Assembly (NCBI GenBank): GCA_029834535.1
Contig: JAQMWT010000345.1
Span: 1-56,221 of the forward strand
Origin: Chrysophaeum taylorii
Lineage: Eukaryota > Sar > Pelagophyceae > Pelagomonadales > Pelagomonadaceae
Direction: 5' to 3'
Length of the DNA: 56,221 bases
Shown: positions 719-36,519 of the stretch, piece by piece
Numbering within the stretch: position 1 is the first letter of the stretch
Layout of the letters: each line of letters opens with the position of its first letter
The notes under the pieces: generated by a model
What the model saw: the letters and a program-made list of their open reading frames with translations, nothing else
What the model was told of the DNA's origin: nothing
The model's database searches: none
Made by a program: the position numbers and the translations under genes

Positions 719-1001
719 TGTGGCAGTAACGCCATTTCCCCACTTGCCTGCCTGCCACCTGACTTACCCTGCCTGATTGTTGCCCTGGTATTGACCTTGC
801 ATTTATGGGGGGGTGTCATCTCGACACCTTCAAATGCGTTTCCACTGGACCCAATGTACCGGGCATTTGTATTGCTTTCTTGCTGTCTTCTTGATATTAC
901 CCTCATTTGATTGTCCGATTTCGTGGTGGCGTGAGGTATTACGCTGAGATCGGGCGTGAGGTGGTGGTTCACCCGCGGTTCGGGTTGGAGAAGGGTTGTT
1001 G
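719..1001 (+). repeat. gypsy 5' LTR
   Basis: Starts TGTGGCAGTAACGCC and ends ...GAAGGGTTGTTG. It aligns across its whole length with 9634-9913. The two differ by a GCCT insertion, a run of G of different length and scattered substitutions. The end could be two bases further right (CA at 1002-1003), which would give a canonical TG...CA LTR. Confidence 0.85.
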
Positions 1002-1665
1002 CATTTGTGGGTGAAGATCCAGAGGATCACGGGTACCGCCGCGGGGTTCATTTTACGTGATTCGGATCGAACGGGGAGCGGAGTCACTACGACTCATTTT
1101 GCATATTTTTGCATATCGTAAGGCATATAAGACCTAACCTAGCTCGCGCGAGGCAGACCACCTCCCTGACGGCGAGCGACAACACCGGGAAGGCCGTCCA
1201 TAGTCTTCACGCGCAAGGCAATGCTCCGTAAGACCAGCGCACCGGTACAGCGCGCAGTAGTCAGACGGCTGCCGGCAATTGTCGTCTGACGAAAAGAATA
1301 CAACAAGTGAGTTGCGAACGTCCGGAACAAACCTATTATCCGGGCAAATGCGATCATGGCAGAGAGGCCAATGACAGAACGATCGCAGTGGTTCGGGACG
1401 CACAGGAGCGTCTGCAGCGATTCAGTGCAGGGACTCCATTTGCGTCTATTGGAAGAACACCGTTCAGTACGCCCTTTCAACGGCCGGAAGCCGAGGAAAG
1501 TGGCATCGGAAGAGAGGCAAGATCATCTGATAGCCTCGACAACCCCCCAGCGTGGTCATCCTTCCGGATCCACGCGGCGGCGAAGGGGAGCTACGGTTGC
1601 GCCAGACGCAACTTCAAGACCGGGTGAGCCGACGTTCCCTGTACACACGACCCTACGAACGTGTG
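1002..1665 (+). other. gypsy 5' leader and candidate primer-binding region
   Basis: About 660 bp lie between the 5' LTR and the first ATG of ORF1. A TGGGTGAAGATCC stretch at about 1007 starts with TGG, as a tRNA 3'-end primer site would, but I could not name a tRNA. Open frames without ATG in three registers overlap at 1307-1745. One of them may be a decayed N-terminal extension of ORF1. Confidence 0.45.
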
Positions 1666-2175
1666 ATGAATGCTACGGAGTCATCTCGAGCGGAACCCGG
1701 ACCGTTTACGGCGATGCGTGGACCAGAGGAGAGTGCACCTCCTAGGCCACCATCTGCGAATACGAGAGCGACAGATTTTCGCGTGGATGTCGACCCCGAG
1801 GTTCTGCAGACCATCAACGAACGATTCGAGATGTACCAGTCGCAGATGGTGCAAGTCATACGTGAACTTGAGAACACCCGCCGCGACGCTCAACAACAAC
1901 GCTCAGAAGTGGAGCGACAGCGGATCGACAACGATCGACTTCGGCGAATGATGGAGGAATCCATGCGGGCGCATGCTCGAGAGGCACGGCCAACCTCTCC
2001 GAATGCTACGCGTGTTACGCCCGACGACGATGATGACGCTGTATCGGCATTGACCGACGATCAGCCACCGCGAAGTCGACCGGAGCCTACCTCGCAATAT
2101 CATACTGACCCGGTTCGGCGCGTCCTCGTGACGAGGAAGAGATACTTCGTGTCAAGAAGGGAGATGCTGGTATGA
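1666..2175 (+). CDS. gypsy ORF1: short gag-associated coiled-coil protein
   Basis: This ORF of about 169 residues starts at an ATG. The frame is open upstream to about 1552, but only with a GTG there. The middle (around ETINERF to RRMMEES) is rich in Q, E and R with heptad-like spacing and probably forms a coiled coil. A D-rich stretch follows. Its TGA stop overlaps the ATG of the long gag-pol frame as ATGA at 2172-2175, so ORF2 lies in another frame and could be reached by reinitiation or frameshifting. No recognised enzymatic domain. It may supply a capsid-associated or oligomerisation function (inference). Confidence 0.6.
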   Translation: MNATESSRAEPGPFTAMRGPEESAPPRPPSANTRATDFRVDVDPEVLQTINERFEMYQSQMVQVIRELENTRRDAQQQRSEVERQRIDNDRLRRMMEESMRAHAREARPTSPNATRVTPDDDDDAVSALTDDQPPRSRPEPTSQYHTDPVRRVLVTRKRYFVSRREMLV

Positions 2176-5100
2176 CACGTATCACATTTTCGAATCTCAC
2201 GGGGCAAATTACCAAGGACCGTGATGAGGTGGACGCGTGGTGGATGCAATTGCGGCGTATGATGGAAGGCAAGATTGATAAACCCTCAATAGCGATGAAT
2301 GTGATTGGAGGCGAGTATCAACTCGCCCCTATGGAAGCTTATCGCAAGTGGGAAGTTGAACGGCCGCAGATGTGGAAACAATACAAGGATGGGACCATCA
2401 CAATGAAAGAGTTGCGCCAGCATGATGAGGACTGTCTGGATGCTATGCAAGAGGCGACGAAGCTTCCTTGTCCACCTCGGGCTACGGTTGAGGAGCTTGA
2501 ACGTGAATGGTTCAATTTACGGCAAGGGAATTTGTCATTGAATAAGTATATCGCGCGATGGGTGCAGAAATTCGGCCAGTGGAGAGCAATGTCAGGTCGC
2601 GATACTGATCCGGCTGCGTTCCGTTCGCACTTCATTGCTGGTCTCAATTCTGAGCGCTTGCGGACGAGCGTCGAACTTGCTCAGGCCTCACCGCATATGA
2701 AAGCATCTACTCTCACCCTCAACGATGTCATTCAATTGACCATCCAGATTTCCAAGATTCTGGAAGCCAACCCTACTGCCAACATCGAAGAGGCGATTAA
2801 GAAGGAGAAAGGAAAGGAGCACGCACCACGGATGAGGAGAGAGCAGCAGCAGCAGAGGCAGCAGTTGCAGTCAGTCCAACGGGTTGGTTATGTTACTGAC
2901 TCAGGAGTTGGAACCTGGCTACCACAGAGGATAGATAACCATACGCGTCAAGCAATTACGACGTGCCTCAGTTGCGGCCGGCATGGTAGTTTTAACCACG
3001 ACAACGGTGTGTGTCCTGTGCCGGACAATCCCTCGAGGAAGAGGCGTGCTGCTCAGACGTTGACGACTGCGGGTTTTCCAGCAACGCCAGAGGGACAGGA
3101 GCAATACCGACGGACGCTTTTAGCTGCAGCAGGACAGGCTTCAGTGACTCAGCTGGCGCCGCGCGTTGTGCAACAGCCGCAGGTGGTCTACACAGCAGCA
3201 CAGGTGCCAGGTGCAGGTCAACAGCAGCTGGTTGCAGGCACTCAGCAGCGTTTGGTTGCAGGCTCTCAACAACAGGTGGTCCGAAGGCAGCCTGCAGTGC
3301 AGCGGACCGCTCAGACCTCGGTGCGCCTGGAGGATCTGACTACGGCTCTCAACACGATGAACTTGATTCGTCAGGCACAGCAGACGGCTCCGCCGGGTAG
3401 AGGGCGACAGTCTCAGAGAGCGAACCCTAGCCAGCACAATGATGGTGTCGCCGCTCAGTGGCTTGAAGTGCTTGGCGAAGATCAGGATGACACTAAGCGA
3501 GCGGATTACTGCACTGTGCAGTATTCTGAGCTCATGGAGGGCAACGTGTATGACGATGACGAGGTCGGGGGCGATGATGGTAGCTTCTCTGCAAAGGCCA
3601 TTCCCCCTGGTGACCTCATGGAACCTCCTTCCTTTTTGGTCATCACTGAAGATGCATGGGTGGAGGAGCAGGAGCAAAGTACCGAAGTGACTGGAGTTGC
3701 ATCTAGAGTTCTCTCGGAAGACGAAGATAATCGTGACGAATTGGGGTATACGATTGTTCGTGTGGGACAAGATACCTTGGTTGCCATGGATATAGTGCCA
3801 CCGAGGGACGACTGTGCCGAGCGTTATGCTGCTCACCCTTCCATCTCTTCGGAGTTCGAGAGTTTCTGCCCTCAGACTGCGTTGAATACCACTCAGGATC
3901 CCGACCATCGTGAAAATAAAGCCGTAAGGTACGATGGCACGAGATCCGCCTCTTTGACGTATGTGCCTGTGGCTATCTCTTCGCAAGATGGTTCGAAATA
4001 TTCCATCATCGCTGCCGGTTTGGATGGCATGGCTGATTCCCCCTACATCGATCACCGCTTGTATCGCAAACTTGATCGTGACGGCAAAATCATCTATCGT
4101 CAGCCACTCCCTACTATTCGTACTCTAAATGGATCAGGAGGTTCGGGAGCTGCTATTCGAGAATGGGTCATTCTCCGGATCTCCTTGGTGCCGACGACAT
4201 CCATGCTGCTCATGTTCTTCGTTGGTCAAACGAATGGGCAGTTACTATTAGGAGCACGAGAATTACGACTCTTGGGTACGATTTTGGATTATGCGACAGA
4301 GAGAGCTATTTTTCGGCGTTCTGAATTGACCGTTGGAGTTCTCAAGAATCGGACTTCCGCCTCGCCACAAGACCAGCATGGAATTGTCCTTTACAATGAT
4401 GCATTCGATGCGATCCCACAGGTAGTGCAGATGTTCCCGGCAGCTAAGCTTGCTGTGCAATACGGAAATATCCAAACTTGGACGCCAGTTGGTAAACCGT
4501 GGAGTTATGGCAGTCTATTGCCTTCTATTCGTATCAGAGCGAATCACCATCACATTCCTCCCGGTGATCAGTCTGCTGAAACAGCGGAAGACCAACTTGA
4601 ATGCCCTGCAGACGAGGAAGATATCATCCCTCATTTCGCGTACGTGACGAGTACTCGATTTCTTCTTCCAAGCCAACCGTACTTCTTGGAGATGGAGTGC
4701 GATGTGCCGCTGGAAAAGGGTCACGTATTCCGACCTTATCGGTCACTCCTCCAAGATCTCCGCCTTGTACCTGGTTCCTATTCATCGTATTGTGCTGATG
4801 AGCGCAACGAAGTTCATGTGGCTGTGGAGCACATTGGTGACGAACCCATTGGTATCGACCCCGAAGTCCTGGTGGTCGAAGGCGAGATCATGCCGCATGA
4901 AGGATGTGTCAACATGCAGCTAGAAGCCACTGATGACGTGTGTCATGCCACTCTTACGGCTGCTGTTGACGACGATGAAGTCGAGGAGGATGTCTTGAGT
5001 GACAGACCTCCTCCTCAGCCACCTCCAGATGAAGAAGTGAAAAAAACACCAGAAATGGAGATGGAGGCGACTGCTAAGGAGCTGCTATCTAAGCACGCCT

Positions 5101-7547
5101 CCTTGGTTTGGATACCCATCACCTACACCTTTGTCGTCGTCTACTTTGCTGGCTCTGGAGGATCAACGTTGGGTATCCGGCGATGCAATGAGCTATATGG
5201 CAGTTCATTTCGCATTGTCCTGGCTTTGGATGCTTGTCCTCAAGCCCGAGCCACCTTTGAACTCAATTTTCCGAAGATTCCCTATGTTTTGCATGAGTTG
5301 GGGAAATCTCATCGTCGTACATACGACTTGGTGTTGTCGTATTTACACTCAGATTTTTGGAAGCATTCTTATTTTCACGCCAGTCCGCCGTGTATCTATG
5401 GATCGACTGCCAATTTGCACTACAGGGACGCACGCAAAGGCGCTACTATTACTTCTTGGGTCCTGCGTCACTTCCGCAACGCACCTTATGTGATTGGACG
5501 ATGGACGCTCGAGCAGGAACCATCAGTGATCCCTTTTGTGCATCACCAATTTTATGTGCCGCGTATTGTTGATTTCTATAGTATCACGCCAGAGCTGCTG
5601 TGCTCGCGCACGCGCCTACTTGCTTGCAATGTTCGCTTGGAACTGCCGTTATTATCGCGTGTACCACCGAATTTACGGGACCGTTTTGGCCCAGCGTTGG
5701 GATTTACAGGTGGTCACCCGCTCATTATAGTGAACAGTTTCTCATCTACGCGCCCGGCTATCGGCCCTGCCTTCACGGTGACGCGCAATAAGCTCCGCTT
5801 AGGACCTCATTTCTCGAACACCCGTCCACTCACGTTGCAGATGCACCAGGAAATTATGACCGTTCCTGCTACGTGGCAATGGGGTGCGACAGTTTCCGAG
5901 ACAGTAGCTATGAAGATGCTTGGCAGTATGGTGCCACCCGCGACTATGACGCGGATTGCGCTAGCAGTGCACAATTCGTTTGAACCTTCACTTCGAAATT
6001 TGGGTAAGTTGCGGAATATTGCGACGACTACGCTAGCCCAACCTGATCACCATATTCTACGGTTTTCACCTTTTGCTGTAGAGTCGCGCATTCCAACGCT
6101 CGACCCTGCCACTCGAAGTGTATCATGGATTGCGCCCGATGAACTCTACTCTTCTGCGAGTCCTGCACCATCCGCTGCTGCCACCACCACCCCGCCACCA
6201 CCTTCAGTTACATCGCCTGGGACGGCTTCATCTTTTGCAGGGGGCACCGTCGCCACTGCTGTTATGCAGAGCAACCAAGTTGATAACCAGCCCTCCGCAA
6301 CTGCTGAAGAAGAAGGCACTGCGAAAGAGCGACCAGCGTATTTCAATACGTACGACGTTCCGTGGGCGGACGCGCCTCACGACGAACATGGTCAACCTTC
6401 ACCGGTGATGCCTCCTCATTTAGCGGATCAGGAGAGCATGCAGGTCATCCCTCCGACCGTCGCGCAGGTCGAAGAGGTGATGACTGAGTTGGGTATTACA
6501 GAGCATCCTGCTTTAGATGATGACGAGAAGCTGATGATGAAGCATTTAATCTCGTATTCGTGGGCATTTTTCGATGATGTGATGAGACCTGTTGATTCAC
6601 CTGAAGTGACGCTCCGGTTCAAAGAAGAGAACCCGACTCCCGTCAAACTCTCGCCATATCGGTTGTCGAAAGAAAAGATTGAATGTTTGCGGATGCAGAT
6701 TGAAGCATGGACCCGAGACGGAGCTATTCGTCCCGCGAATTCTCCACAGGGTTTCCCTATTTCGATGTTGCCTAAGAAAGGTGCCGAGCCTGGCACTTCC
6801 AATGCTTACAGAGCAGCTGTCGACCTACGGCGCCTCAATGCATTGCTCAAGGATGATAGCTGGCCGAGTGTGAGCATGGCTGACGCGTTGATGTTTCTCA
6901 TTGACAAGTTTTGTCGTTCCAGTTTGGATATTCGTTGGGGCTATCACAATTTACGATTGTCGCTAGATGCACAAGATGTGGTCACCTTCACTAGTCCTCT
7001 GGGAGCGTACAGCTACATGCGTCTACCTTTGGGAGTCAAACCAGCCGGAAGTTTGTTTTGCAAGCAGTTGAACACTGACTTGTCGCAATGGCTATATCGT
7101 GATCTCGTGGCATATATCGACGATATTCTCGCCGGTCACGCAGATACAAAGAATCACTTGCAGTGCCTTGTGCAAGTTATTCCCCATCTCGCCTTGAAGG
7201 GGTACAGCGCCAAGATCAAGAAGATTCATTTTATGCAAGAAGTCATTGAGTTTTTGGGTCATTTATCTACCCCGAACGGACTTCTTCCATCACCAAGGTC
7301 TTTAGAAGCTATCAGACACATGCCAATTCGTGGCACTTTGTCGGATGCTGACCCTAAGAAGCAAGTGCGATCTTTCCTTGGAATGGGGAGCTTTTGCCGG
7401 CGTTATGTAAGGAATTTTGCGAAAGTTGCAGAGCCATTAAAACAACTGACGTTGCCGGACGTGAAATTCAAGTGGACGAAAGAGTGTCAGGAAGCTTGGG
7501 ATGCCATCATCGAGGCTATTGTCTTCGAAGGGCGTCTATCATCCTGA
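2172..7547 (+). CDS. gypsy gag-protease-DNMT-RT polyprotein
   Basis: A 1791-residue uninterrupted frame starting at the ATG of an ATGA overlap. A retrotransposon gag domain spans about residues 100-200 (EREWFNLRQGNLSLNKYI region). A zinc-knuckle-like cluster C265-x2-C268-x7-H276-x4-C281 has spacing unlike the usual CX2CX4HX4C. A retropepsin-like segment begins near D618, where the expected D-S/T-G is D-G-M-A-D, followed by LLLGARELRLLG. A beta-rich segment lies at about 830-930. The C5 methyltransferase covers about 985-1270 (separate entry). RT covers about 1480-1780 with the YIDD box at Y1648-D1651 and an SLDIRWGYH motif. The frame stops at TGA 7545-7547 inside the RT/RNase H junction. A 1-nt gain near 7530 and a 1-nt loss near 7570 would explain this, because RNase H resumes in the same register. 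Confidence 0.92.
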   Translation: MTRITFSNLTGQITKDRDEVDAWWMQLRRMMEGKIDKPSIAMNVIGGEYQLAPMEAYRKWEVERPQMWKQYKDGTITMKELRQHDEDCLDAMQEATKLPCPPRATVEELEREWFNLRQGNLSLNKYIARWVQKFGQWRAMSGRDTDPAAFRSHFIAGLNSERLRTSVELAQASPHMKASTLTLNDVIQLTIQISKILEANPTANIEEAIKKEKGKEHAPRMRREQQQQRQQLQSVQRVGYVTDSGVGTWLPQRIDNHTRQAITTCLSCGRHGSFNHDNGVCPVPDNPSRKRRAAQTLTTAGFPATPEGQEQYRRTLLAAAGQASVTQLAPRVVQQPQVVYTAAQVPGAGQQQLVAGTQQRLVAGSQQQVVRRQPAVQRTAQTSVRLEDLTTALNTMNLIRQAQQTAPPGRGRQSQRANPSQHNDGVAAQWLEVLGEDQDDTKRADYCTVQYSELMEGNVYDDDEVGGDDGSFSAKAIPPGDLMEPPSFLVITEDAWVEEQEQSTEVTGVASRVLSEDEDNRDELGYTIVRVGQDTLVAMDIVPPRDDCAERYAAHPSISSEFESFCPQTALNTTQDPDHRENKAVRYDGTRSASLTYVPVAISSQDGSKYSIIAAGLDGMADSPYIDHRLYRKLDRDGKIIYRQPLPTIRTLNGSGGSGAAIREWVILRISLVPTTSMLLMFFVGQTNGQLLLGARELRLLGTILDYATERAIFRRSELTVGVLKNRTSASPQDQHGIVLYNDAFDAIPQVVQMFPAAKLAVQYGNIQTWTPVGKPWSYGSLLPSIRIRANHHHIPPGDQSAETAEDQLECPADEEDIIPHFAYVTSTRFLLPSQPYFLEMECDVPLEKGHVFRPYRSLLQDLRLVPGSYSSYCADERNEVHVAVEHIGDEPIGIDPEVLVVEGEIMPHEGCVNMQLEATDDVCHATLTAAVDDDEVEEDVLSDRPPPQPPPDEEVKKTPEMEMEATAKELLSKHASLVWIPITYTFVVVYFAGSGGSTLGIRRCNELYGSSFRIVLALDACPQARATFELNFPKIPYVLHELGKSHRRTYDLVLSYLHSDFWKHSYFHASPPCIYGSTANLHYRDARKGATITSWVLRHFRNAPYVIGRWTLEQEPSVIPFVHHQFYVPRIVDFYSITPELLCSRTRLLACNVRLELPLLSRVPPNLRDRFGPALGFTGGHPLIIVNSFSSTRPAIGPAFTVTRNKLRLGPHFSNTRPLTLQMHQEIMTVPATWQWGATVSETVAMKMLGSMVPPATMTRIALAVHNSFEPSLRNLGKLRNIATTTLAQPDHHILRFSPFAVESRIPTLDPATRSVSWIAPDELYSSASPAPSAAATTTPPPPSVTSPGTASSFAGGTVATAVMQSNQVDNQPSATAEEEGTAKERPAYFNTYDVPWADAPHDEHGQPSPVMPPHLADQESMQVIPPTVAQVEEVMTELGITEHPALDDDEKLMMKHLISYSWAFFDDVMRPVDSPEVTLRFKEENPTPVKLSPYRLSKEKIECLRMQIEAWTRDGAIRPANSPQGFPISMLPKKGAEPGTSNAYRAAVDLRRLNALLKDDSWPSVSMADALMFLIDKFCRSSLDIRWGYHNLRLSLDAQDVVTFTSPLGAYSYMRLPLGVKPAGSLFCKQLNTDLSQWLYRDLVAYIDDILAGHADTKNHLQCLVQVIPHLALKGYSAKIKKIHFMQEVIEFLGHLSTPNGLLPSPRSLEAIRHMPIRGTLSDADPKKQVRSFLGMGSFCRRYVRNFAKVAEPLKQLTLPDVKFKWTKECQEAWDAIIEAIVFEGRLSS
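5124..5985 (+). other. C5 cytosine-specific DNA methyltransferase domain inside the gypsy polyprotein
   Basis: Residues about 985-1270 of the polyprotein contain the diagnostic motifs in order. Motif I, the SAM-binding loop, is FAGSGG at 992-997. A motif II-like acidic strand is followed by ATFELNFP. Motif IV is the catalytic SPPC with C1074. A motif VI-like TLEQEP holds E1114/E1116. Motif VIII is SRTRL at 1145-1149 (family QxRxR). Motif IX is RPLTLQMHQEIMTVPATW (family RxLTxxE...FP). Motif X is LGSMVPP at 1250-1256 (family GNAVPP). The family transfers methyl from S-adenosylmethionine to carbon 5 of cytosine through the PPC cysteine. The target-recognition part between VIII and IX is short. 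At about 285 residues it is slightly smaller than bacterial enzymes of this family. The sequence is in frame with gag and RT and has no stops. Activity is inferred, not shown. Confidence 0.88.
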
Positions 7548-8177
7548 TTACTCATTACCTTTTACATTCGAACTGATGCTTCCGCGCATGGGTTGGGTGC
7601 TTACCTATTTCAAAAAGTACCAGTCGTTGACGACGATGGAAGAGAAAGAATCGAAGAGAGAGTTATCGAGTACTGGAGTCGAACCGTGCCTAAGTCGATG
7701 AGGAAGTACGATCCTCGGCGCTTGGAACTCCTCGCAGTACTCTCTGCTCTCGAAAATTTCCGATTTTATATCGAAGGTCATCAGAGGAAGTTAGAGACGG
7801 ATCATCGTAATTTAACGTTTCTGCGGGATTCGAATCATACGTCAGGACAGTTAGCACGATGGGCTATGCGGCTTACTGCATTCGACCGGGAGCTCGGATA
7901 CAAGCCTGAAAGCTCCCATGGCATGCGTATTCCGGATTGTCTGTCGCGCAACCCTATCGACAAATTGATCGAGAAAGATGAAGACGGGAACCGATCAATG
8001 AAGCTTTTTGATTTTCCAAGAAATCCCCACCGATGTCCCTGGCACAGCTTGCTTCACCTTCTCTTCGGTGACGATGCCTATGCTGACGGACAGCGGACCC
8101 ACCGCAGCTATGGTAGCAGTTAGTACGCGACAGAACGTACAACCGCCTCAATTCTCGTACGAATCTGAGCCAGTTGA
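7548..8177 (+). pseudogene. gypsy RNase H and connection region, frame-disrupted
   Basis: The frame of the long polyprotein resumes with RTDASAHGLGAYLF, the first catalytic strand of retroviral-type RNase H. It continues through YDPRRLELLAVLSALENFRF and ETDHRNLTFL to PDCLSRNP, all standard for Ty3/gypsy. From about 8030 to 8190 the sensible reading moves one frame over (AMVAVSTRQNVQPP, a typical post-RNase H connection) and then returns. Stops at 8121 and 8175 therefore lie in a locally out-of-register stretch. It reads as two compensating indels, either real decay or assembly error. Confidence 0.75.
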
Positions 8178-9644
8178 CTCCGTCGAACGTGTCCTTTTGC
8201 GGATCAAGCGGAGGATGAGATCACTCTCGACGAGATAGCGAAAGAACAAGCTGAGGATGAAACATGCAAGCGCATCAGACGAAAGCTCGACTCTGAACAG
8301 AAAGATCAAGACGAGCAGTCATCCGTACCATATGAGATTGATGACAACGTGTTGTATAAGGTCGAAGATTCAGCTTCTCAACGTTTTATTGTGGTCCCTC
8401 AGTCTATGCAGAAGCGTGTGATCGCCATGCATCACCGAGGCTTGTTCGGAGGCCATGTAGGACGAGATTCCACAGCGAATCAAATCCTAGAACGGCATTG
8501 GTGGCCAAACGTCTCATCATCCATTAATGAGTTCGTCAATGCCTGCATTATTTGCCAGAAGATTCGATCCACCATGCCTAGGCGCCATGGCTTGCTCTGT
8601 CAACCGAATCGCGTCGGAGACTCCTATGTCCTAGGTGTGGATTTGATTGGACCTTTGCGAGGCGCTGACCTGTACACGTACATACTCGCAATGTACGATA
8701 CAGCATTACATTTCTTGAAATTAGCTCTGATCAACACGAAGCATGATTATTCGAATTTGAACGCGTTTGTGGACAAGATTTTACTTGAGGGATGTCTCCC
8801 ACGGTGCATAGTCACGGATAATGGAAATGAGTTCGCGAACAGGTTATTTCGCACGTTTGTTCGTCAATTCAACGTACGTTATCATACTACCATTCCGTAT
8901 CACCCTCAGAGTAATCATACTGAGCGTGTCAATCGATTCATCAATGCCTTCTTGCGAGCTGCGATCGATGAACAGCGTCAGCCAGATTGGTCGAATTTCC
9001 TCCCATATGTGTCATTCATGTACAATAGGATGTACATTCCGGGAACGAAGATTTCACCTTTCATGATGCGTACTGGCAAGCAACCCCTGTTACCACCCGA
9101 TTGCAATCTTTTGAGTGAACAGCGTGATCTACCGCAATCACGTCATCAGATTTTGGTGGATTTTAAGAACAAGTTTGAATTTTATAGTCGACTCGTTACA
9201 CGAGCTCACCAGAAAGCACAGGAGAGTCAAAAACTGAACTATGATGCCCACCAAATTGACATCCAGTTTTCCCCAGGTGATTATGTTCTGCGTTTCGTGC
9301 CTAAGACACGCCACAAGCTACGACCCATTTGGCGCGGACCTTACATGGTTACTAGAAAGATCTCTCCCGTCGTTTATGAAATTCAAGACGTCAACGACGA
9401 TGATGCTGAATCGGTTGTAGTATCTGTACAACAGATTGTGCCATTGAAAGTGCCAACCATCGACGCTTCTTCAGCCCCTCTGCATTTACCCTCGGACCGC
9501 GACCGGTTCAAACATGGAAAGTTCGTGATTTTCAGGGTGAAAGGGCGATCCAACGCGCTTATCGTACCACTCGTGAGCGTGACCTTCGTCACCCTTGAAG
9601 TCGAGGACGATTTCATCTCACGTAGGGGGCTCCTGTGGCAGTAA
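8178..9644 (+). CDS. gypsy integrase with GPY/F-like C-terminus
   Basis: The frame is open from 8178; the first ATG is 8349. It is in the same register as gag-pol, so it is probably the C-terminal part of the polyprotein rather than a separate gene. The HHCC zinc-binding region is HHRGLFGGHVGRD...CIICQ. The catalytic D,D(35)E core shows LGVDLIGPL, CIVTDNGNEF and PYHPQSNHTERVNRF. The C-terminus has a GDYVLRF...RPIWRGPYMV segment matching the GPY/F module. No chromodomain was recognised after it. The stop TAA at 9642-9644 lies 11 bases inside the 3' LTR. Confidence 0.9.
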   Translation, partial: LRRTCPFADQAEDEITLDEIAKEQAEDETCKRIRRKLDSEQKDQDEQSSVPYEIDDNVLYKVEDSASQRFIVVPQSMQKRVIAMHHRGLFGGHVGRDSTANQILERHWWPNVSSSINEFVNACIICQKIRSTMPRRHGLLCQPNRVGDSYVLGVDLIGPLRGADLYTYILAMYDTALHFLKLALINTKHDYSNLNAFVDKILLEGCLPRCIVTDNGNEFANRLFRTFVRQFNVRYHTTIPYHPQSNHTERVNRFINAFLRAAIDEQRQPDWSNFLPYVSFMYNRMYIPGTKISPFMMRTGKQPLLPPDCNLLSEQRDLPQSRHQILVDFKNKFEFYSRLVTRAHQKAQESQKLNYDAHQIDIQFSPGDYVLRFVPKTRHKLRPIWRGPYMVTRKISPVVYEIQDVNDDDAESVVVSVQQIVPLKVPTIDASSAPLHLPSDRDRFKHGKFVIFRVKGRSNALIVPLVSVTFVTLEVEDDFISRRGLLWQ

Positions 9645-9913
9645 CGCCCATTTCCCCACTTGCCTGCCTGCAACCTGACTTACCCTGATTGTTGCCCTGG
9701 TATTGACCTTGCACTTAGGGGGTGTCATCTCGACACCTTCACCTGCGCTCCCACTGCTGGACCCAATGTACCGGGCATTTGTATTGCTTTCTTGCTGTCT
9801 TCTTGATATTACCCTCATTTGATTGTCCGATTTCGTGATGGCGTGAGGTATTGCGCGCTGAGATCGGCGTGTGGTGGTTTCACCCGCGGTTCGGGTTGGG
9901 AGAAGGGTTGTTG
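9634..9913 (+). repeat. gypsy 3' LTR
   Basis: Starts TGTGGCAGTAACGCCC directly after a G-rich tract (TAGGGGGCTCC) that may serve as the polypurine tract. It matches 719-1001. The integrase stop codon is inside its first bases. It ends ...GAAGGGTTGTTG, followed by AGGCC. Confidence 0.85.
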
Positions 9914-13388: not shown

Positions 13389-15374
13389 TCAGTCGTAGAT
13401 GGGGCAGAAGGTGTTGAAGGCGAGGTCGCAAAAGTGACCGGGGTCGTTGTAGCGCTTGTTCTGGTTGAGGGCGTCGATCTGGTCTACTTGGTCCGAAGAA
13501 AGCTCGAAATCGAAGAGCGCGAGATTTTCGCGGAGACGGTGGGGTTTGCTGGATTTGGGAATGACGGCCGTGCCGCGCTGGACCCCCCACCGGAGAAGGA
13601 TTTGGGCGGGGGTTTTGTCTCGAGATTTGGCGATCGCCAGGACCACCGGGTGCGAGAGGAGGGAGTCCTCGGGGGTCGCCATGTCGAGCTCGACGTACGA
13701 TGCCGAACCAAGGTTGGAGAAGGCCATCACCTGGACGCCCCTTTCCCGCGCGAAGCGAAGGAGACGCGACTGCGCGTTCCGCGGATGCATTTCCACCTGT
13801 AGCACGGCCGGCTTGACTTTCGCGTACTGGAGGACCTGGTGGAGGTGGGCAGTGTTGATGTTGCAACACCCAATGTTCTTCGCGAGGCCCCGGGCGTGGA
13901 GCCGTTCCATGCCGCGCCACGTCTGCTCGTAGGTGACGCCTCGGGCCAACTCCATTCTCGGAAACTTGGCGGCCGGATCGTAGACCCATTCCGGCGGGTA
14001 CCGGGTCGACACGGGCACGTATTTCTGGGCGATCGGAAAGTGAATCAGGTAGAGGTCGAGGTACTCGAGCTGGAGGTCTTCGAGGGTCTTGGAGAGGCCC
14101 TCCTCGACGCGAGCGTGGAACGAATTCCAGAGCTTAGAAACGACGAAGAGATCTTCTCGGCGGCACAGCCCTTCCTCGATGGCTCGCTTGATCCCGCGAC
14201 CCGTCTCCTGCTCGTTTCCATAGTCGCAGGCTGAATCAATCAGCCGGCACCCCGCCTTGATGGCCTCGTACACCACTTCTTCGGCATCCCGCAGCTTCCA
14301 GCATCCCAGACCGACCGACGGCAAAAGGTCGCCGCTCGAGAGCGCGAGATGCGTTCCTCCTCCTCCTCCTCCTCCCGGCAATACGGATTTCGGGCCGCGG
14401 GAGATCGAAGCATAGATGCGCCGCACCCCTTCGTTATCAAACGGCTGCCGCGCGTGGCACGCGACAGTGTTGTCGACGATCATAAAATCACCGGGTCGCC
14501 ACTCGCGAGCGAACTGGTTGGACCGCAGCCACGCGTCGACGGCTCCGACGACGTCGCGCGGCAGCGGCGATCCATCCGCGGCGAAGACCACCGCCTTGGT
14601 CGGATCGTTCCGCTTGTCCACCCAACCCGTCGCGGCCGCGATAATCTGGTTGAAAAAGGCCGTATTCCCGTTCGAAGCCGCCCGCGTCGCCTCGAGCGGC
14701 GGACTCGTCACGCGTAGGTCTTGGTTCTCGAGCCATTCCCATTCGTAGCCCTGCTTCCGCATCGCCGCTTCGGCCTCCTCTTTCGACTCGACCCCAAACA
14801 TCGACCTCCACGACCGTCCCAACGCTGACCCCGGGTCGTCCTCGGAGGGTGCCACCTTGACGTACCTCACCCCTCCGTTCAATTTGGCCAAAAAATCTGG
14901 AAATTCTCTCGCGAGCATCTCGTAGGCCCAATCGGATCGCGCGATCGGGGTCGCGCCGCCCTCGCAGCTATTTTCGGCGCAATAAAAGCATATGTGCTCG
15001 GGCGGGTCGGGCGTCTGCGCGAGCTCGTGGTGAAACGGTATCGGTTCGCTCGGCGGACTCTCGTTCGTCGTTACGACCTGCAACCCTCGCGGCCCCACGA
15101 TCATCTTCCGCACCGCCGCACCCCCCGTGTATTCCATCTCGCGCAGACCCGTCTTGCTCAGCACCGCGGCCCACTCCTCGCCGCTCCGGACATCACCGCC
15201 GCAAAACAACACGGCGCCGCACTCGCTCGCGGCCCGCAGCAACGCCTCCCGATGACACCCGACGTACTCCTGGAGCGTCACGAAATTCTTCCCCGAACAC
15301 CGCAGCACCACGGGAAACCCCTCGCTCTCCACAACGACGCCAGACGACGACTCGAGCAGCCCCTTCCACGACAT
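13389..15374 (-). CDS. fusion of TauD/clavaminate synthase-like dioxygenase and aldo/keto reductase
   Basis: A 661-residue intact frame. I chose the ATG at 15374; the frame also has a GTG two codons upstream. Residues about 1-330 are an Fe(II)/2-oxoglutarate dioxygenase of the TauD type. The metal motif is FHHELAQ (H115-x-E117, the HxE form known from clavaminate synthase-like members), and the second histidine and arginine lie in VACHARQPFDNEGVRR. A seven-glycine linker (about 334-340) coded by a CTC repeat follows. Residues about 341-661 are an aldo/keto reductase of xylose-reductase type, with tetrad D380, Y385 (SACDYGNE), K414 (VVSKLWN) and H445 (LYLIHFP). Both halves keep catalytic residues, so oxidation and carbonyl reduction may be coupled on one substrate. 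The substrate is unknown. Confidence 0.88.
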   Translation of the reverse strand: MSWKGLLESSSGVVVESEGFPVVLRCSGKNFVTLQEYVGCHREALLRAASECGAVLFCGGDVRSGEEWAAVLSKTGLREMEYTGGAAVRKMIVGPRGLQVVTTNESPPSEPIPFHHELAQTPDPPEHICFYCAENSCEGGATPIARSDWAYEMLAREFPDFLAKLNGGVRYVKVAPSEDDPGSALGRSWRSMFGVESKEEAEAAMRKQGYEWEWLENQDLRVTSPPLEATRAASNGNTAFFNQIIAAATGWVDKRNDPTKAVVFAADGSPLPRDVVGAVDAWLRSNQFAREWRPGDFMIVDNTVACHARQPFDNEGVRRIYASISRGPKSVLPGGGGGGGTHLALSSGDLLPSVGLGCWKLRDAEEVVYEAIKAGCRLIDSACDYGNEQETGRGIKRAIEEGLCRREDLFVVSKLWNSFHARVEEGLSKTLEDLQLEYLDLYLIHFPIAQKYVPVSTRYPPEWVYDPAAKFPRMELARGVTYEQTWRGMERLHARGLAKNIGCCNINTAHLHQVLQYAKVKPAVLQVEMHPRNAQSRLLRFARERGVQVMAFSNLGSASYVELDMATPEDSLLSHPVVLAIAKSRDKTPAQILLRWGVQRGTAVIPKSSKPHRLRENLALFDFELSSDQVDQIDALNQNKRYNDPGHFCDLAFNTFCPIYD

Positions 15375-15447
15375 CAACACCCTGTATTCTGCGTTGTCTG
15401 TCTGTCTGCTTGAGAAATAAACAACGGAACATAAGTATAAGCAAGTT

Positions 15448-31068: not shown

Positions 31069-32482
31069 ATGGCAGAACACGCAGCACGAACCGCACCCAA
31101 GGCGATCACAGGTGCGGATGTATTGAAGCTCGAAGCTACTGTAGTTGAGTTTCTTAACAATGGAAATCGATTTCAGCTTCAGACTCGCAAGGTATCCTTG
31201 CAAATCAAGCATATTAAGCAATTGTTACGGTCCAGTCATGCCGATGCCTTCCTCGAGTACGACTCGTACGAAGCATATACTCGGTCATGCAAGGACTACG
31301 AGATCCTAACTAACTAACTAACTTCAGACCTCTCCCGAGCATGGGAGCCAGGCCGGACAGGCAGGAGCCGATCCGGAATCACAGAGGAAAATCACGCAGT
31401 TGGGGCTGAGGCGAGGGACGAGAACTCGCTGATGACGGACCGCGCCACTGCGCGCGGTCTTGTGCGAAGTCGTGCAAAAGCGTCGCAGGCCGCAAACGTG
31501 TTGGTCCACGAACAATCGACCTGTCCGTCGCGTTCTGCCCAACCGAGCGAACCCCATCCCAGCGCGGACTTTCCGGGTGCTAACCGGCCAGCCCGGGAGG
31601 CGAGCAGGCACCGTCTCACTCCGGGACGGCCGGGGCCGCCGCAGGGAGCAAGTGTGTTAGGCGCCATCCTCCATCGCAACCAACGGTTAGCGATCGCAGG
31701 GATCCTCCGGAATCAAATTCTCGATCGCTTTTTCCTGGAATGGAAGACCGATAGGGCTGCTGATCTCCGTTTAGCTGTTGATGATTGCCCCCTGAGTATC
31801 AGGAATGGCATTTCACCAACGAAGCTTTCCCCAACTTACCTGATGCAGAAGTAGCTCAGCTAGCTACTGTCTGTTACGACTATGAAGTCAAGGCACTACG
31901 TCCTGAAATCAATGCTCGTTTCTTAGAAGAGGAACGAATCTTAAATCGCGCGCACCCGAAAGCATTAGCTTTCGACACCCGTGTTCGTGCCCCTGTTACT
32001 ATGTTTTCGTTAACTGCTGCTTACTGGCACACTTATCAGAACACGTATGCTACATTCTTGTATACTTACTTCAATCTTGAAAGTGTTGGAAAACCAGCAT
32101 ACATCGGCATTATGCCGATAATACCAGCAACAATCGTTACGATCGTGGTTGGGTAGATTGGTGTTATATGTATGAAACCCGATCTTCATCTCGGCCTGTG
32201 CCAGAAGCTGAACGATTGTGTCACCCTACCAACCTTAGCTACGTTTTAGAGTACGCATTAGACTTATACAATGTAGTATCAAATAGGTCGAACAAAAGAC
32301 GCTTAGAACGCCCCGTTTCTTGGCAACCCTATGTCGAAGGTTTTTCATCTCAATCAAAGCCAAAGTTACTACTTACAAATACGCTGGATTAAGCAGACAA
32401 AAGTCTGACTCAAACTGCTAACACACTCGCCTTCATCACTGCGTCTCAACCTGGTACATCTTCCACGTTTAATGCTAGACGC
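31069..32482 (+). pseudogene. C2 gag, N-terminal part, disrupted
   Basis: An ATG at 31069 begins a frame related to C1 gag (SLQIKHIKQLLRSSHADAFL). It is interrupted by the SINE-like insert 31308-31700, resumes (RNQILDRFFLEWKTDRAADL), shifts frame near 31785, runs to 32156, then lacks about 300 bp relative to C1 before RRLERPVSWQPYVEG. It cannot make intact gag. Confidence 0.7.
31308..31700 (-). mobile_element. SINE-like insert in C2 gag
   Basis: About 393 bp flanked by GATCCT at 31302-31307 and 31701-31706. In reverse orientation it ends in (GTTA)n after GGTCTGAA. It shares the tail region and the GGTTGCGATGGAGGA head with the insert at 34003. A simple-repeat tail, variable-length target duplications and no coding capacity fit a non-LTR or SINE-type element. 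RNA polymerase III boxes were not found with confidence. Confidence 0.65.
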
Positions 32483-33973
32483 TTGCGTAACTCTAATGAT
32501 GCTCGCCAGCCTTTCTCTCGCAGCGACTTATCGTATTATCGTTCTGGTGATTCTTACGTCACCAAGAAAACTGCTGGACTGTCCCATGACCGTCCAATTT
32601 ACCCCCGCACTTTTGACAGGTCCTCTCGGTCTAACATGAAATTATTAGATCGAACAAATCACACGTTAAACACCCTGCGAGAACAGTGTAGTGAACTTAC
32701 GAAGCATGTGACAGATAATGATACCACGGCCCACCTACAACAGAATATCAACAAGTTATTTGAGACTCTATTACAATCAGCTGACATTCTGTCAACGACA
32801 TCTACTGAGGACAACAGTAACTTACTTCGTCTAAACGAACAACTCATGTTTGCAGAAGACATCATTTATGATGTAGACGTTCATCTATCCTCGACCGAAA
32901 AGTCGTTAAACTACGTGGAGCCACAACACCATACTGTTGTTACTGCTCCCACCCCAAAGGCAACTCCTCCTACTACAGACACGAAGAATCCCCCCAACAC
33001 ACAGGGTAATCCCTCCAATATTGTGCCTAACCTCTTTACTGCTTCCGCCATCTCGGCGTTACCACCAGCGTTACTGTCCTCGCTATCTTCACAGGTCCAA
33101 TCAGTCATTAACCAACCACCACAAGCCGAAACCACAAGGGATGTCGATCATACCTCTCTACCATCATTTGATGAGAAGCACGGCATGGTTGATGAGGCTG
33201 ACGAACCATCACCACCTGTTCAACCGATTATCATTCCAAATCACTTATTATTTCTGGAGAACTTCTTCACTGCCAGCCTCTCCACTACTTGCCCGCATTC
33301 GGAAAATGCACTCCTAACCAAATATATGAAGGTAAACAGTGTCCCTCAACATTGTTCCTTTTTATATTTTGACTCTTGTGCTACCATATCCTTGATGTCC
33401 ACGTACGATTTTGCAATACCCAACCACATTATTCCACTGGACTCGAAATACGCGCCGATTGTTATTCAAACAGCCACTGGACAACAACGTGCCTCACACA
33501 TGATGTTAACACGTAACATTGTTGTTCCCCTACCAGATCATCCACAAGTTGGCTATGTTAAGATCGACTTCGCTTTATGTCTTCAGCCAGTGCACGACCG
33601 ACATCTCGCTATCCTGAGCATGCTCGAGTGGAACCAGACGAACCTGACCACTGTGTTCAATGATCGAGCTGAGCCAAAGCCCAGCGCCGTCACGAGCCGC
33701 ATAGACAAAGATGTACGTATCCCCATACACTACATAGGAGCTAATTTACCTGCTCTCCCTTGTCTCACTTACAACATCGCTCGCGACAAGCAACTCGAAC
33801 TTCGCTCCCTCGTATTTCCCCTCAAGCGATACCATGAAAACAGGGATCTACTGGCATACTACAACTACCTACTCCTAAGAGTTTTACCAGATCGCCCGTG
33901 GATTCGCCCTTTGGTTCTCAATCTTCGGAAACAGAAGAAGTTTGTTCAACAAAACACGCAGCCATTAACTTGA
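32483..33973 (+). CDS. C2 gag C-terminus and protease
   Basis: A frame of about 496 residues, open from about 32395. The first third is helical with a likely coiled coil (LNTLREQCSELTKHV). Then come STEKSLNY (32891-32914), a Pro/Thr-rich linker, and the protease, whose DSCAT at 33371-33385 occupies the D-S-G-A-T active-site position, followed by PIVIQTATGQQ and HPQVGYVKIDFALCL. Glycine to cysteine at the active site is shared with C1. Confidence 0.75.
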   Translation: MRNSNDARQPFSRSDLSYYRSGDSYVTKKTAGLSHDRPIYPRTFDRSSRSNMKLLDRTNHTLNTLREQCSELTKHVTDNDTTAHLQQNINKLFETLLQSADILSTTSTEDNSNLLRLNEQLMFAEDIIYDVDVHLSSTEKSLNYVEPQHHTVVTAPTPKATPPTTDTKNPPNTQGNPSNIVPNLFTASAISALPPALLSSLSSQVQSVINQPPQAETTRDVDHTSLPSFDEKHGMVDEADEPSPPVQPIIIPNHLLFLENFFTASLSTTCPHSENALLTKYMKVNSVPQHCSFLYFDSCATISLMSTYDFAIPNHIIPLDSKYAPIVIQTATGQQRASHMMLTRNIVVPLPDHPQVGYVKIDFALCLQPVHDRHLAILSMLEWNQTNLTTVFNDRAEPKPSAVTSRIDKDVRIPIHYIGANLPALPCLTYNIARDKQLELRSLVFPLKRYHENRDLLAYYNYLLLRVLPDRPWIRPLVLNLRKQKKFVQQNTQPLT

Positions 33974-34002
33974 CTATCCTCCATCCACGCCCCTTCCTAA
34001 AG

Positions 34003-34364
34003 CTAACTAACTAACTAACTTCAGACCTCTCCCGAGCATGGGAGCCAGGCCGGACCGACAGGAGCCAGCCCGGAATCACGGGCCTGTAGACGAGGAGCGC
34101 CGAAAGGTCGGTCGGCGGAGAGTGACCATCAAGCTTGTCGCCATGCGACGAGGAGACCGCGATGTGACTGACAACCAACTCGTCGATAACCTTCCGTATT
34201 CGCCCCCCGGCCATACCCCGTCCCACTGCGAACGTTCCGGCTGCCAACCGGCCCGCCCGGGAGGCGAATAGGTGCCAACCTACGCCGGGAGAGCGGATGC
34301 CCTCGCAAGGCTCAGGATTCATGAGGCACCGTCCTCCATCGCAACCGCAGTCGGCGATCAGGGT
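34003..34364 (-). mobile_element. SINE-like insert before C2 module X
   Basis: About 362 bp flanked by a perfect 13-bp duplication, CCCCTTCCTAAAG (33990-34002 and 34365-34377). A long, variable duplication plus a simple-repeat tail ((GTTA)n on the minus strand) is typical of target-primed reverse transcription. It shares its tail and head with the insert at 31308. Confidence 0.75.
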
Positions 34365-34377
34365 CCCCTTCCTAAAG

Positions 34378-35772
34378 ATCGTGGATGATCTACAAGCTAT
34401 TCCCAAGCGCCTTTGGCTACCTAAGCACGTATCCAAAGACTGGATCCGGGTGTTCCCCGATCCTCCATATATCCCCGTTCCTAAAACGTTTGCACCTTAC
34501 TCTTGCACAGGTTCTGTTCAGCTTACTATGGCTGACCTTGAATCCCTAAATATGTTACTGCTTCGCCTTCACTCACAACAGGCTCACGAGCAACGTACTC
34601 ACTCTGTTCAATCCGAGTGTATTTATCATCAGCTGTGCTTTAAACGCTCCTCTATGGAGCCGCTACCCAATGCAACCTACCCTATACACGTCAAGGTTTT
34701 TACAATCCTCTATAACTTGTTTGCCAGCTTACACACTAACTCACCCACTCCAGTGTCTTATTACATAACCGTTTTCGAAACTAACCAACCGTCACACAGG
34801 TTACTACTTACAACCTCATCAACATCACACAACTCCCACTTAACTGGTGGCCACCATTCTGACGGCAACCTCACCATAGAGAACGCCACCACCAAATATC
34901 ATGCTTCCATTGACGCTTTTGGAAGCACGTATACGTTCACTGCTTCCGACATCCCCCGCGACCGGGACAGGTCCATATATTTGGAGCCGTTTATGGGTTA
35001 CTTGTGGATAGTCCAAGCCCTCCCTCAAGTTGGCTCCGCTGCCACCTATGGCACCGCCATACAAAAGCTCTTGTCCAGATGCTCTCTTGCGATGCCTGGC
35101 TGCCTTACCTACAAGGCCACCGACAACTCTTTCGACTACAAGGATTCTCATTTTGCTCTGGAAGATCACCACTTATCTCATAGTCGCTATATAGGGTACC
35201 TTCGTGGAAGTGACCGCAAACTCGGCTCTAAAATCCACTCCATGCATGCTCCATTGCCCACCGTCCGAGGGTACGCCAATATTATTTTACTTGACCCCCG
35301 CAACGGGAAATTACGCTACCCCACTCGACCGGAGTTGATTCGTGCTAACAACCACACCAAACAACAGGAATCTTTCCTCTTGTCTCTACGCCATGACCTT
35401 TGCTGCGACATGCTCAGCAATGCTCTGCCTGCCGGTACGTACAGCACTCTGTACAAGCACCTTTCGCTCCTCGTTGCCGATATTAAATCCCTTATGTTGG
35501 ACCCTACCTTCCAACATACTGCTGCCGTGACGAAGAAATCCTATGTATCCAATTTCATGACCGTTGATCAAGCTTCCACCACGTGCAGCACAGATACCTT
35601 GTCTTTGGCACAATCTTTTATGATGTCTATTTCCAGCAACTGCTTGACCGAAATGTCGTTAAACTATATATCTTCGTCCTACGAAGATACTCTCGCTCGT
35701 GATGATGAGGATGCACCTCCAAGTGACCCTGCTGCGCACCAGGATGACGACGCACCGCCTCCCCTGCCTTAG
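34378..35772 (+). CDS. C2 module X, unknown conserved domain
   Basis: About 460 residues in one frame, the best preserved copy of module X. No motif of a known enzyme was seen. It is rich in S, T, H and Y, with conserved blocks shared with C1 (see that entry). Near its end is LTEMSLNY (35644-35667), followed by an acidic, proline-rich tail. It lies where copia elements normally pass directly from protease to integrase. The beginning of X, present in C1, is missing at the SINE insertion. Confidence 0.65.
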   Translation: MVDDLQAIPKRLWLPKHVSKDWIRVFPDPPYIPVPKTFAPYSCTGSVQLTMADLESLNMLLLRLHSQQAHEQRTHSVQSECIYHQLCFKRSSMEPLPNATYPIHVKVFTILYNLFASLHTNSPTPVSYYITVFETNQPSHRLLLTTSSTSHNSHLTGGHHSDGNLTIENATTKYHASIDAFGSTYTFTASDIPRDRDRSIYLEPFMGYLWIVQALPQVGSAATYGTAIQKLLSRCSLAMPGCLTYKATDNSFDYKDSHFALEDHHLSHSRYIGYLRGSDRKLGSKIHSMHAPLPTVRGYANIILLDPRNGKLRYPTRPELIRANNHTKQQESFLLSLRHDLCCDMLSNALPAGTYSTLYKHLSLLVADIKSLMLDPTFQHTAAVTKKSYVSNFMTVDQASTTCSTDTLSLAQSFMMSISSNCLTEMSLNYISSSYEDTLARDDEDAPPSDPAAHQDDDAPPPLP

Positions 35773-35790
35773 ACACCGAACTCAAGTTCG

Positions 35791-36519
35791 ATGTTCGGTG
35801 CAAACGGCATATTCCCGCTCATCCCATTCCTCGTAAGTCCTCGCACACGGATCCACCGAATATCTCAATGCCAAAGAACGTGCCAATCGCTTCCACCGGT
35901 GCATCACTGCCCCGACAACGTCGCTGCCAAGGCCCCCAACGTACTTGCTCGCCCTGGATTCTCTGCTTCTGACATACCATATCGCGACTTATGCACCGAC
36001 TGCATCGCACACAACAAGCGCCACCCGCACAAGCATTTCAATGCGACCAAGCCTTCTTTTGAGCAAACTCACAAAGCCGGCGAAGTCTGGGCGTGCGACG
36101 GCGGCTATGTGACCATCCCATCCGAATGGGGAGGCTTCACACATATCATCGTCTTCAAGGAACTCATTTCGAAATTTCTCTTGGTGTACTTTACACGCAC
36201 CACCAACGCCACGGAGTTCACTCAAGCTCTGGATTTTGTGTATGACTTCCGTCGTACACAACTCAACGTGCACATGCGCACCCTCTACTCCGATGCCTTA
36301 AGCCCTACTTTAGCCAGCACATTACCTCCCCGTACCGCGTCGATAAGGGCATTCAACTCATCGCCTTCCCGCCGTACATGCACCACTTTAACTTTGAAGT
36401 TGAGGCCGCCATCGGTTTCATCGCCTCCGCCTCCTCAACTCGCCTTCGTTCTCTCCTTAATGCTCACTATCGTGGCGCCAAGATCGTGGAACCAGCCATC
36501 ATGTTTCCGTGGGCGGTGA
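35791..36519 (+). CDS. C2 integrase, zinc-binding and core part
   Basis: A CxxC finger (LCTDCIAHNKRHPHKH) is followed by VWACDGGYVTIPSEWGGFTH with the first catalytic Asp, and LNVHMRTLYSDALKPYF (after a 1-nt shift near 36297) with the second. The usual TDNG is replaced by SDA. The frame after 36297 is taken over by the next ORF, whose NFEVEAAIG holds the expected Glu. C1 has the matching CDSFKPYLSQH. Confidence 0.7.
   Translation: MFGANGIFPLIPFLVSPRTRIHRISQCQRTCQSLPPVHHCPDNVAAKAPNVLARPGFSASDIPYRDLCTDCIAHNKRHPHKHFNATKPSFEQTHKAGEVWACDGGYVTIPSEWGGFTHIIVFKELISKFLLVYFTRTTNATEFTQALDFVYDFRRTQLNVHMRTLYSDALSPTLASTLPPRTASIRAFNSSPSRRTCTTLTLKLRPPSVSSPPPPQLAFVLSLMLTIVAPRSWNQPSCFRGR

Follow-up and report, generated by a model that had tools for sequence, protein, structure and literature searches.

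DNA methylation is a classic weapon of the host against transposons, so that retrotransposons carrying the methylating enzyme themselves present a paradox. According to the accessible parts of the literature, such elements are on record from a genus of dinoflagellates and from a single charophyte: de Mendoza et al. 2018 (PMC5890265) reported DNA methyltransferases (DNMTs) under purifying selection in long interspersed nuclear elements (LINEs) and DIRS elements of Symbiodinium and in a gypsy element of Klebsormidium nitens, and among the retrotransposon enzymes tried in yeast only those of SymbioDIRS methylated CG de novo. The present report deals with a 56,221-nucleotide stretch of DNA from Chrysophaeum taylorii (contig JAQMWT010000345.1), referred to as the window, in which a Ty3/gypsy retrotransposon with long terminal repeats (LTRs) bears a predicted C5-cytosine methyltransferase domain between its protease and reverse transcriptase (RT) regions.

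The nearest known case is KnitGypsy-Dnmt3 of K. nitens (PMC5890265), which, as far as the accessible text of that paper goes, likewise has its DNMT within the gypsy-type Pol open reading frame (ORF), occurs in several copies and shows Ka/Ks values below 0.2; it differs in encoding a Dnmt3 and in its DIRS-like repeats, whereas the window copy is bounded by simple direct LTRs and has a DNMT for which no close relative was found. SymbioDIRS-Dnmt3, described in the same source, also combines DNMT and RT in Pol and occurs in many copies, but belongs to the tyrosine-recombinase DIRS elements and encodes Dnmt3-class enzymes, unlike the integrase-type Ty3 and copia elements considered here. SymbioLINE-Dnmt resembles the present case as an orphan DNMT lineage residing on retroelements and differs in being a non-LTR element whose DNMT has its own ORF, located upstream of RT. 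The part available of Sarre et al. 2025 (PMC12344493) assigns the DNMT3 of retroelements to "LTR Copia and DIRS", citing the 2018 paper, which says Gypsy; compared with such a Copia DNMT3, the copia elements reported below associate RVT_2 with a DNMT that could not be assigned to Dnmt3. The accessible portion of PMC6338049 proposes an antiviral use and mentions retrotransposons encoding DAM and DCM in stramenopiles among others, with the enzyme of each group unstated there; that of Hoguin et al. 2023 records DNMT5a from diatoms, pelagophytes and dictyochophytes and names no retrotransposon DNMT; and that of an Ectocarpus transposon paper concerns an enzyme of another class, the N4/N6 type, carried by a DNA transposon.

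A literature search, with most subscription papers and all bioRxiv preprints out of its reach, returned no paper title on DNMT-bearing retrotransposons in stramenopiles or haptophytes. The preliminary description of the window had regarded a DNMT in this position as new for a chlorophyll-c, stramenopile-like genome; since the charophyte element is, according to the accessible text of PMC5890265, itself of gypsy type, a gypsy-borne DNMT is not new in kind. New are Ty3 elements that have ordinary LTRs and carry an orphan DNMT, copia elements that bear a second DNMT in the same genome, and a host endowed with a gene for a chlorophyll-binding protein and with its own DNMT5-like and Dnmt2-like genes. 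Numerous copies, distributed over two LTR superfamilies of another type of host, would represent independent replicates of the same capture; DNMT-bearing and DNMT-less elements can be compared within one compact genome to approach the role of the domain, and the orphan enzymes are available for assay.

The methyltransferase domain in the Ty3/gypsy polyprotein

C5-methyltransferase motifs had been noticed in one unbroken 1791-codon frame, and this frame was recovered with all the quoted motifs in place, FAGSGG starting at 5145, SPPC at 5382, SRTRL at 5604, RPLTLQ at 5823, VPATW at 5862 and LGSMVPP at 5919. The profile PF00145 matches 5124-5985 with E=5e-9 and 35.8-36.5 bits (2.8e-7 and 30.7 bits with the whole ORF), above its cut-off of 22, and RT (PF00078) follows downstream, so that the proposed location of the domain between protease and RT holds. 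The PHROGs family phrog_116 (DNA methyltransferase) is matched at 6.6e-10 by the window and at 3.5e-12 by the comparator copy L041, and the NCBIfam model dcm, with 0.00059 on the window domain, stays far below its own cut-off and agrees in direction with PF00145. Encoding of a C5-cytosine methyltransferase domain by window 5124-5985, inside a Ty3/gypsy polyprotein, is confirmed at the level of sequence prediction.

Conservation of the catalytic motifs across genomic copies was likewise borne out, both among 37 copies of the window's lineage AI and of the related AI' and among six sequences spanning AI and the sister lineage AII. The established roles of these motifs comprise the S-adenosylmethionine (SAM) loop of motif I, the Pro-Cys of motif IV, the Glu of motif VI, the RxR of motif VIII and the motif IX-X region. 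SRTRL is kept in 35 and LGSMVPP in 31 of the 37 copies, and the FAGSGG of the window is itself the exception, 33 of the 37 reading FAGAGG. The six Ty3 domains (AI, AI' and AII), although AI and AII are only about 40% identical, align over nearly their full length and share without exception FxGxGG, the acidic residue (D) of motif II, N-F-P, ASPPC, the E-Q of motif VI, the RxRLL of motif VIII, TVTR and the VPP of motif X. PF00145 was matched at E<=0.001 by each of 23 aligned stretches that are free of stops and nearly full-length (22 of the 36 AI and AI' loci tried, plus the window) and by six of six members of the AI and AII alignment, the AII domain of L065 reaching 26.6 bits. A chance similarity is excluded by the matches in the 23 stop-free copies and by the retention of the motifs in a sister lineage that is about 40% identical.

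Copies, selection and a second methyltransferase

Beyond the single window of the preliminary description, the domain belongs to a large family, occurs in a sister Ty3 lineage and has a different counterpart in copia elements. The genome searched is the window's own (70.8 Mb in 697 contigs), and the numbers of DNMT matches are lower bounds of matches rather than copy numbers, fragments and apparently duplicated contigs being included. The contig pairs C25/C521 and C10/C297, which carry the same matches at nearly equal positions, look like duplicated or haplotype contigs. The window DNMT region gives at least 113 matches, 67-100% identical. Lineage AII, reached by a search with the RT family, has an RT 56-63% and a DNMT about 40% identical to those of the window, with the DNMT again between protease and RT; its DNMT gives at least 125 matches, falling into two subgroups by identity. 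Three AII loci taken from the RT list among those with long open frames (L064-L066) all carry a recognisable DNMT, with a frame break inside it in L064 and L066. The open frames that contain DNMT matches reach lengths of 3067 codons, which suggests recent activity.

Selection was estimated as dN/dS according to Nei-Gojobori, dS values near 1.5-2 being close to saturation; comparisons of AI with AII were saturated (DNMT 0.07-0.29 depending on the pair) and were left unused. Between the window and the AI' copies L041, L058-L060 and L063, dN/dS amounts to 0.07-0.08 for the DNMT at a dS of about 1.4-1.5, to 0.03-0.06 for RT and to 0.12-0.22 for the protease-side region, the latter based on 69-98 codons for L058, L059, L060 and L063. 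With L041, a longer RT stretch reaching past the frame break of the window gives 0.11 for RT instead of 0.06. Within AII, the comparison of AIIa (L065) with AIIb (L064, L066, L069, L070) yields 0.06-0.08 for the DNMT at a dS of about 2, and 0.02-0.05 for RT. Closer pairs mostly give higher ratios, with DNMT values of 0.10-0.36 for seven AI copies, as expected from decay after insertion; the outliers are L061 (0.60), a copy with stops and with its pieces in two frames, and L062 (0.34, at a dS of 0.036).

Among the 30 AI copies that match the window DNMT best (L009-L038), DNMT variants shared by at least two copies comprise 16 amino-acid to 63 silent changes, as compared to 126 to 95 among singletons (p=1e-8), a selection of copies by which amino-acid change is under-counted in this contrast. 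RT behaves like the DNMT (24:53 shared, 170:109 singletons), whereas the protease side displays no such contrast (55:57 and 136:101, p=0.17). The Ty3 DNMT domain is thus under strong purifying selection and for this reason very likely serves the transposing element. Contamination and a one-off fusion are rejected on account of the copy number, the selection and the sister lineage.

Searching the genome with PF00145 gave at least 57 matches, and the eight that were read consist of two host-like genes (L001 and L002) and six loci (L003-L008) with a DNMT differing from that of the Ty3 elements. A longer locus of the latter kind, L039, contains a Ty1/copia element (L039:3797-9652; RVT_2 1.6e-38, PF00145 1.1e-7) whose DNMT follows the protease motif LIDGGAS and precedes a weak integrase match (E=0.0061). 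This copia DNMT, with the motifs AGGLHQEGF, LPCQ, VENV and ISKxRYLAV, has at least 109 matches in the genome, 59-100% identical, and an alignment was built from nearly full-length, stop-free stretches of 15 of the 22 copia loci tried, plus L039. Its dN/dS is 0.12-0.15 in six comparisons with dS above 0.4, and 0.48 in the outlier L040. The copia element present in the window itself (32393-39099; RVT_2 at 36246-39099) matches neither PF00145 nor either DNMT profile, which means that copia elements with and without a recognisable DNMT coexist in the genome. A frequent RT group of the genome consists of LINE-type elements, e.g., L067:662-4000 and L068, with endonuclease and RT in ORFs of 1113-1114 codons; the LINE ORF of L067, checked by itself, has no DNMT match.

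The tests made revealed no similarity between the Ty3 and copia DNMTs past the superfamily level, which suggests two captures: a comparison of the two profiles gave E=0.36 over 9 columns, a weak test with profiles of such low diversity (effective number of sequences 1.1), and the copia profile scored -1.8 bits on L065 with hmmsearch, again a weak test. It is possible, though doubtful, that the two LTR superfamilies independently took up different C5-methyltransferases, each placed between the protease and the Pol enzyme that follows, and each maintained by selection. If so, the marking of fresh cDNA or RNA would be a general, repeatedly evolved step in the replication of LTR elements in DNA-methylating hosts, and the mark might be other than CpG methylation of the integrated copy.

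As to the source of the domains, both host genes match PF00145 and, from their motifs, are taken to be Dnmt2-like (L001) and DNMT5-like (L002), the latter (L002:1006-3537) displaying TSCVDYSSLN and a RING-like segment in an open frame of 2086 codons. The locus of the Dnmt2-like gene also holds an ORF for a chlorophyll-binding protein (PF00504, with an ARAFTAP stretch), consistent with the chlorophyll-c type of host proposed earlier. Neither gene is a close relative of the Ty3 domain, and an origin from either was rejected: the Ty3 profile gives only 5.9 bits with L001 and does not report L002, and a blastp match of L001 to L065 in a set of five sequences (E=0.001 over 52 residues) is close to noise. 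An origin of the copia DNMT from these genes was discarded as well, its profile scoring negatively on both.

All searches for relatives elsewhere are of limited reach, that of the protein collection depending on shared exact words. This collection yielded no relative for the polyprotein region of the Ty3 element (2935 candidates, E<=0.01), for the Ty3 DNMT domain alone (1005 candidates, E<=1) or for the copia DNMT alignment (8000 scored, E<=0.1), and scans of viral contigs and prokaryote genomes by two to six short peptide patterns per scan revealed none either. The best PDB entry, the cytosine-specific methyltransferase 8yf3, was not significant (E=0.29 and 0.039; 0.096 with the copia profile), and the profile of the 23 AI and AI' sequences retrieved no PDB entry at E<=10.

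Possible roles of the domain

The explanation we favour, with a probability of roughly 0.45, is that a captured C5-methyltransferase has been kept by selection and methylates the cDNA of its own element by way of the particle. A compact enzyme would have been captured in a single event, probably by a shared ancestor of lineages AI and AII, and would be retained by selection if a working domain improves the transposition of the copy that bears it. Synthesized within Pol, the methyltransferase would share the particle with RT and integrase, as could be the case for SymbioDIRS-Dnmt3, and, by the same analogy, would methylate the cDNA of the element before or at integration, the new copy thus reaching the nucleus with a host-like mark.

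Several observations weigh against self-methylation of this kind. The Ty3 domain has only about 290 residues and a short target-recognition stretch, the usual ENV of motif VI is replaced by EQE or EQG (Gln for Asn), the frame-broken AII ORF of L064 reaches 18.0 bits with PF00145 (E=0.0021), below the cut-off of 22, and the AlphaFold2 models, with a mean predicted local distance difference test (pLDDT) score of 28.9 for the Ty3 domain (23 sequences) and 31.2 for the copia one (16 sequences), are too poor to show the geometry of the active site. Long-standing CG methylation of the copies is expected to result in an excess of C-to-T changes at CG. Transition rates in AI copies are 0.0203 at CG, 0.0194 at CHH and 0.0155 at CHG, those in copia copies being 0.0285, 0.0256 and 0.0205, and no clear excess at CG over CHH occurs (p=0.60 for AI, 0.28 for copia); CG exceeds CHG (p=0.027 and 0.013), but so does CHH (p=0.041 and 0.070), and singleton C-to-T counts do not differ between contexts. 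Likewise, the CpG observed/expected ratio of the element is 1.04, other stretches of the window having 0.94-1.33. The integrated copies hence offer no convincing mutational sign of heavy CG methylation, a lack that would fit good repair, young age, another sequence context or RNA substrates. KnitGypsy-Dnmt3, moreover, had no activity in yeast, a result called inconclusive by its authors in the accessible text of PMC5890265.

An active methyltransferase working on RNA, be it the element's genomic RNA, its tRNA primer or an RNA:DNA hybrid, and assisting packaging or reverse transcription instead of marking DNA, seems considerably less probable than methylation of the cDNA. Copies devoid of a clear CpG footprint would suit it, as would the short target-recognition region and the unusual motif VI, but TVTR and the motif IX-X region fit the profile of DNA methyltransferases. 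Dnmt2 enzymes form a class of tRNA methyltransferases, and of the two host enzymes compared it is the Dnmt2-like one alone that resembles the Ty3 domain, in the profile and blastp comparisons given above, a likeness close to noise. RNA methylation has been raised for SymbioLINE by de Mendoza et al., as far as the accessible part of PMC5890265 reveals. Somewhat less probable still is that the domain weakens the control of transposons by the host without marking its own element, either by binding SAM, a methylation reader or the host DNMT5, or by mis-methylating host loci; a DNMT5-like gene, named from its motifs, is at hand in L002 and the copies give no clear sign of methylation, yet a decoy would hardly need the full set of conserved catalytic motifs.

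That the domain serves the cell is improbable. The hypothesis that methylases encoded by retrotransposons protect the host from DNA viruses has been published (PMC6338049, in its accessible part), and algae do encounter large DNA viruses, but the selection acts on transposing lineages, whose many copies are dispersed, and is hard to explain by a benefit to the host. Even more improbable is a passenger captured once and now decaying: the stops and frame breaks of single copies would agree with it, whereas the dN/dS of 0.06-0.08 between subfamilies, the presence of the domain in all three Ty3 loci picked by RT, and the scarcity of amino-acid changes among shared variants, with a sampling biased in this direction, all speak for its maintenance.

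Organization of the element and neighbouring features

The element extends from 719 to 9913 on the forward strand of the window (Table 1). Its LTRs, aligned globally, show 264 matches and 9 mismatches over 273 aligned bases, with 17 gap columns, and the flanks AGGTC and AGGCC possibly represent a 5-bp target-site duplication with one mismatch.

Table 1. Features of the Ty3/gypsy element, in window positions.
Feature	Position	Strand	Details and basis
5' LTR	719..1001	+	283 bp, TG...TTG; blastn match to 3' LTR
Upstream ORF, probable N-terminal part of gag	1552..2175	+	ORF list; similarity to L041 judged by eye
Open frame gag-protease-DNMT-RT	2172..7547	+	1791 codons; ORF list
Retropepsin-like protease region	3969..4271 (approximate ends)	+	LDGMADSPYID ... 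LLLGARELRLLG; motif only
Predicted C5-cytosine methyltransferase (DNMT) domain	5124..5985 (alignable stretch 5094-6071)	+	PF00145, phrog_116, motifs
Motif IV, SPPC with expected catalytic Cys	5382..5393	+	34/37 copies; invariant in six AI/AII sequences
Motif VI, TLEQEP	5505..5522	+	32/37 copies; E and Q in all six AI/AII sequences
RT core	6771..7262	+	PF00078, 7.4e-13; ORF residues 1534-1697
RNase H	7593..8123	+	PF17917, 1.9e-19; separate ORF, frame broken upstream
Integrase (H2C2 zinc finger, core, C-terminal)	8349..9644	+	PF17921, 2.3e-16; PF22938, 1.7e-6
Purine-rich stretch, candidate polypurine tract	9621..9633	+	sequence, just 5' of 3' LTR
3' LTR	9634..9913	+	280 bp; blastn match to 5' LTR

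Comparator L041 has a gag-like stretch similar to the upstream ORF in one frame with the rest, in an ORF of 2129 codons, and the gag profile PF03732 matches the window ORF weakly (E=0.039, below the profile cut-off). The protease region, without a Pfam match in the window ORF, is presumed to be retropepsin-like from its motif. Retropepsins carry D-T/S-G; the corresponding DGMAD (window about 4017-4050, also in L041 and L064) is common to the AI and AII lineages and, being present in both, looks functional rather than damaged. The nearest PDB entries of the RT are retroviral and Ty3 enzymes, with 9.1e-24 for the Ty3 Gag-Pol (7q5b), and the integrase core PF00665 reaches 1.7e-6 and 28.6 bits, under its cut-off of 32.6. 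The order of protease (from its motif only), RT, RNase H and integrase (from Pfam) is that of a Ty3/gypsy LTR retrotransposon, RT preceding RNase H and integrase, by which the element is typed. The occurrence of RNase H and integrase in later, separate ORFs means that the frame is broken there in the window copy, in agreement with the damage suspected initially. Elsewhere in the window, a single ORF on the reverse strand (13389-15380) fuses a TauD-type dioxygenase to an aldo/keto reductase.

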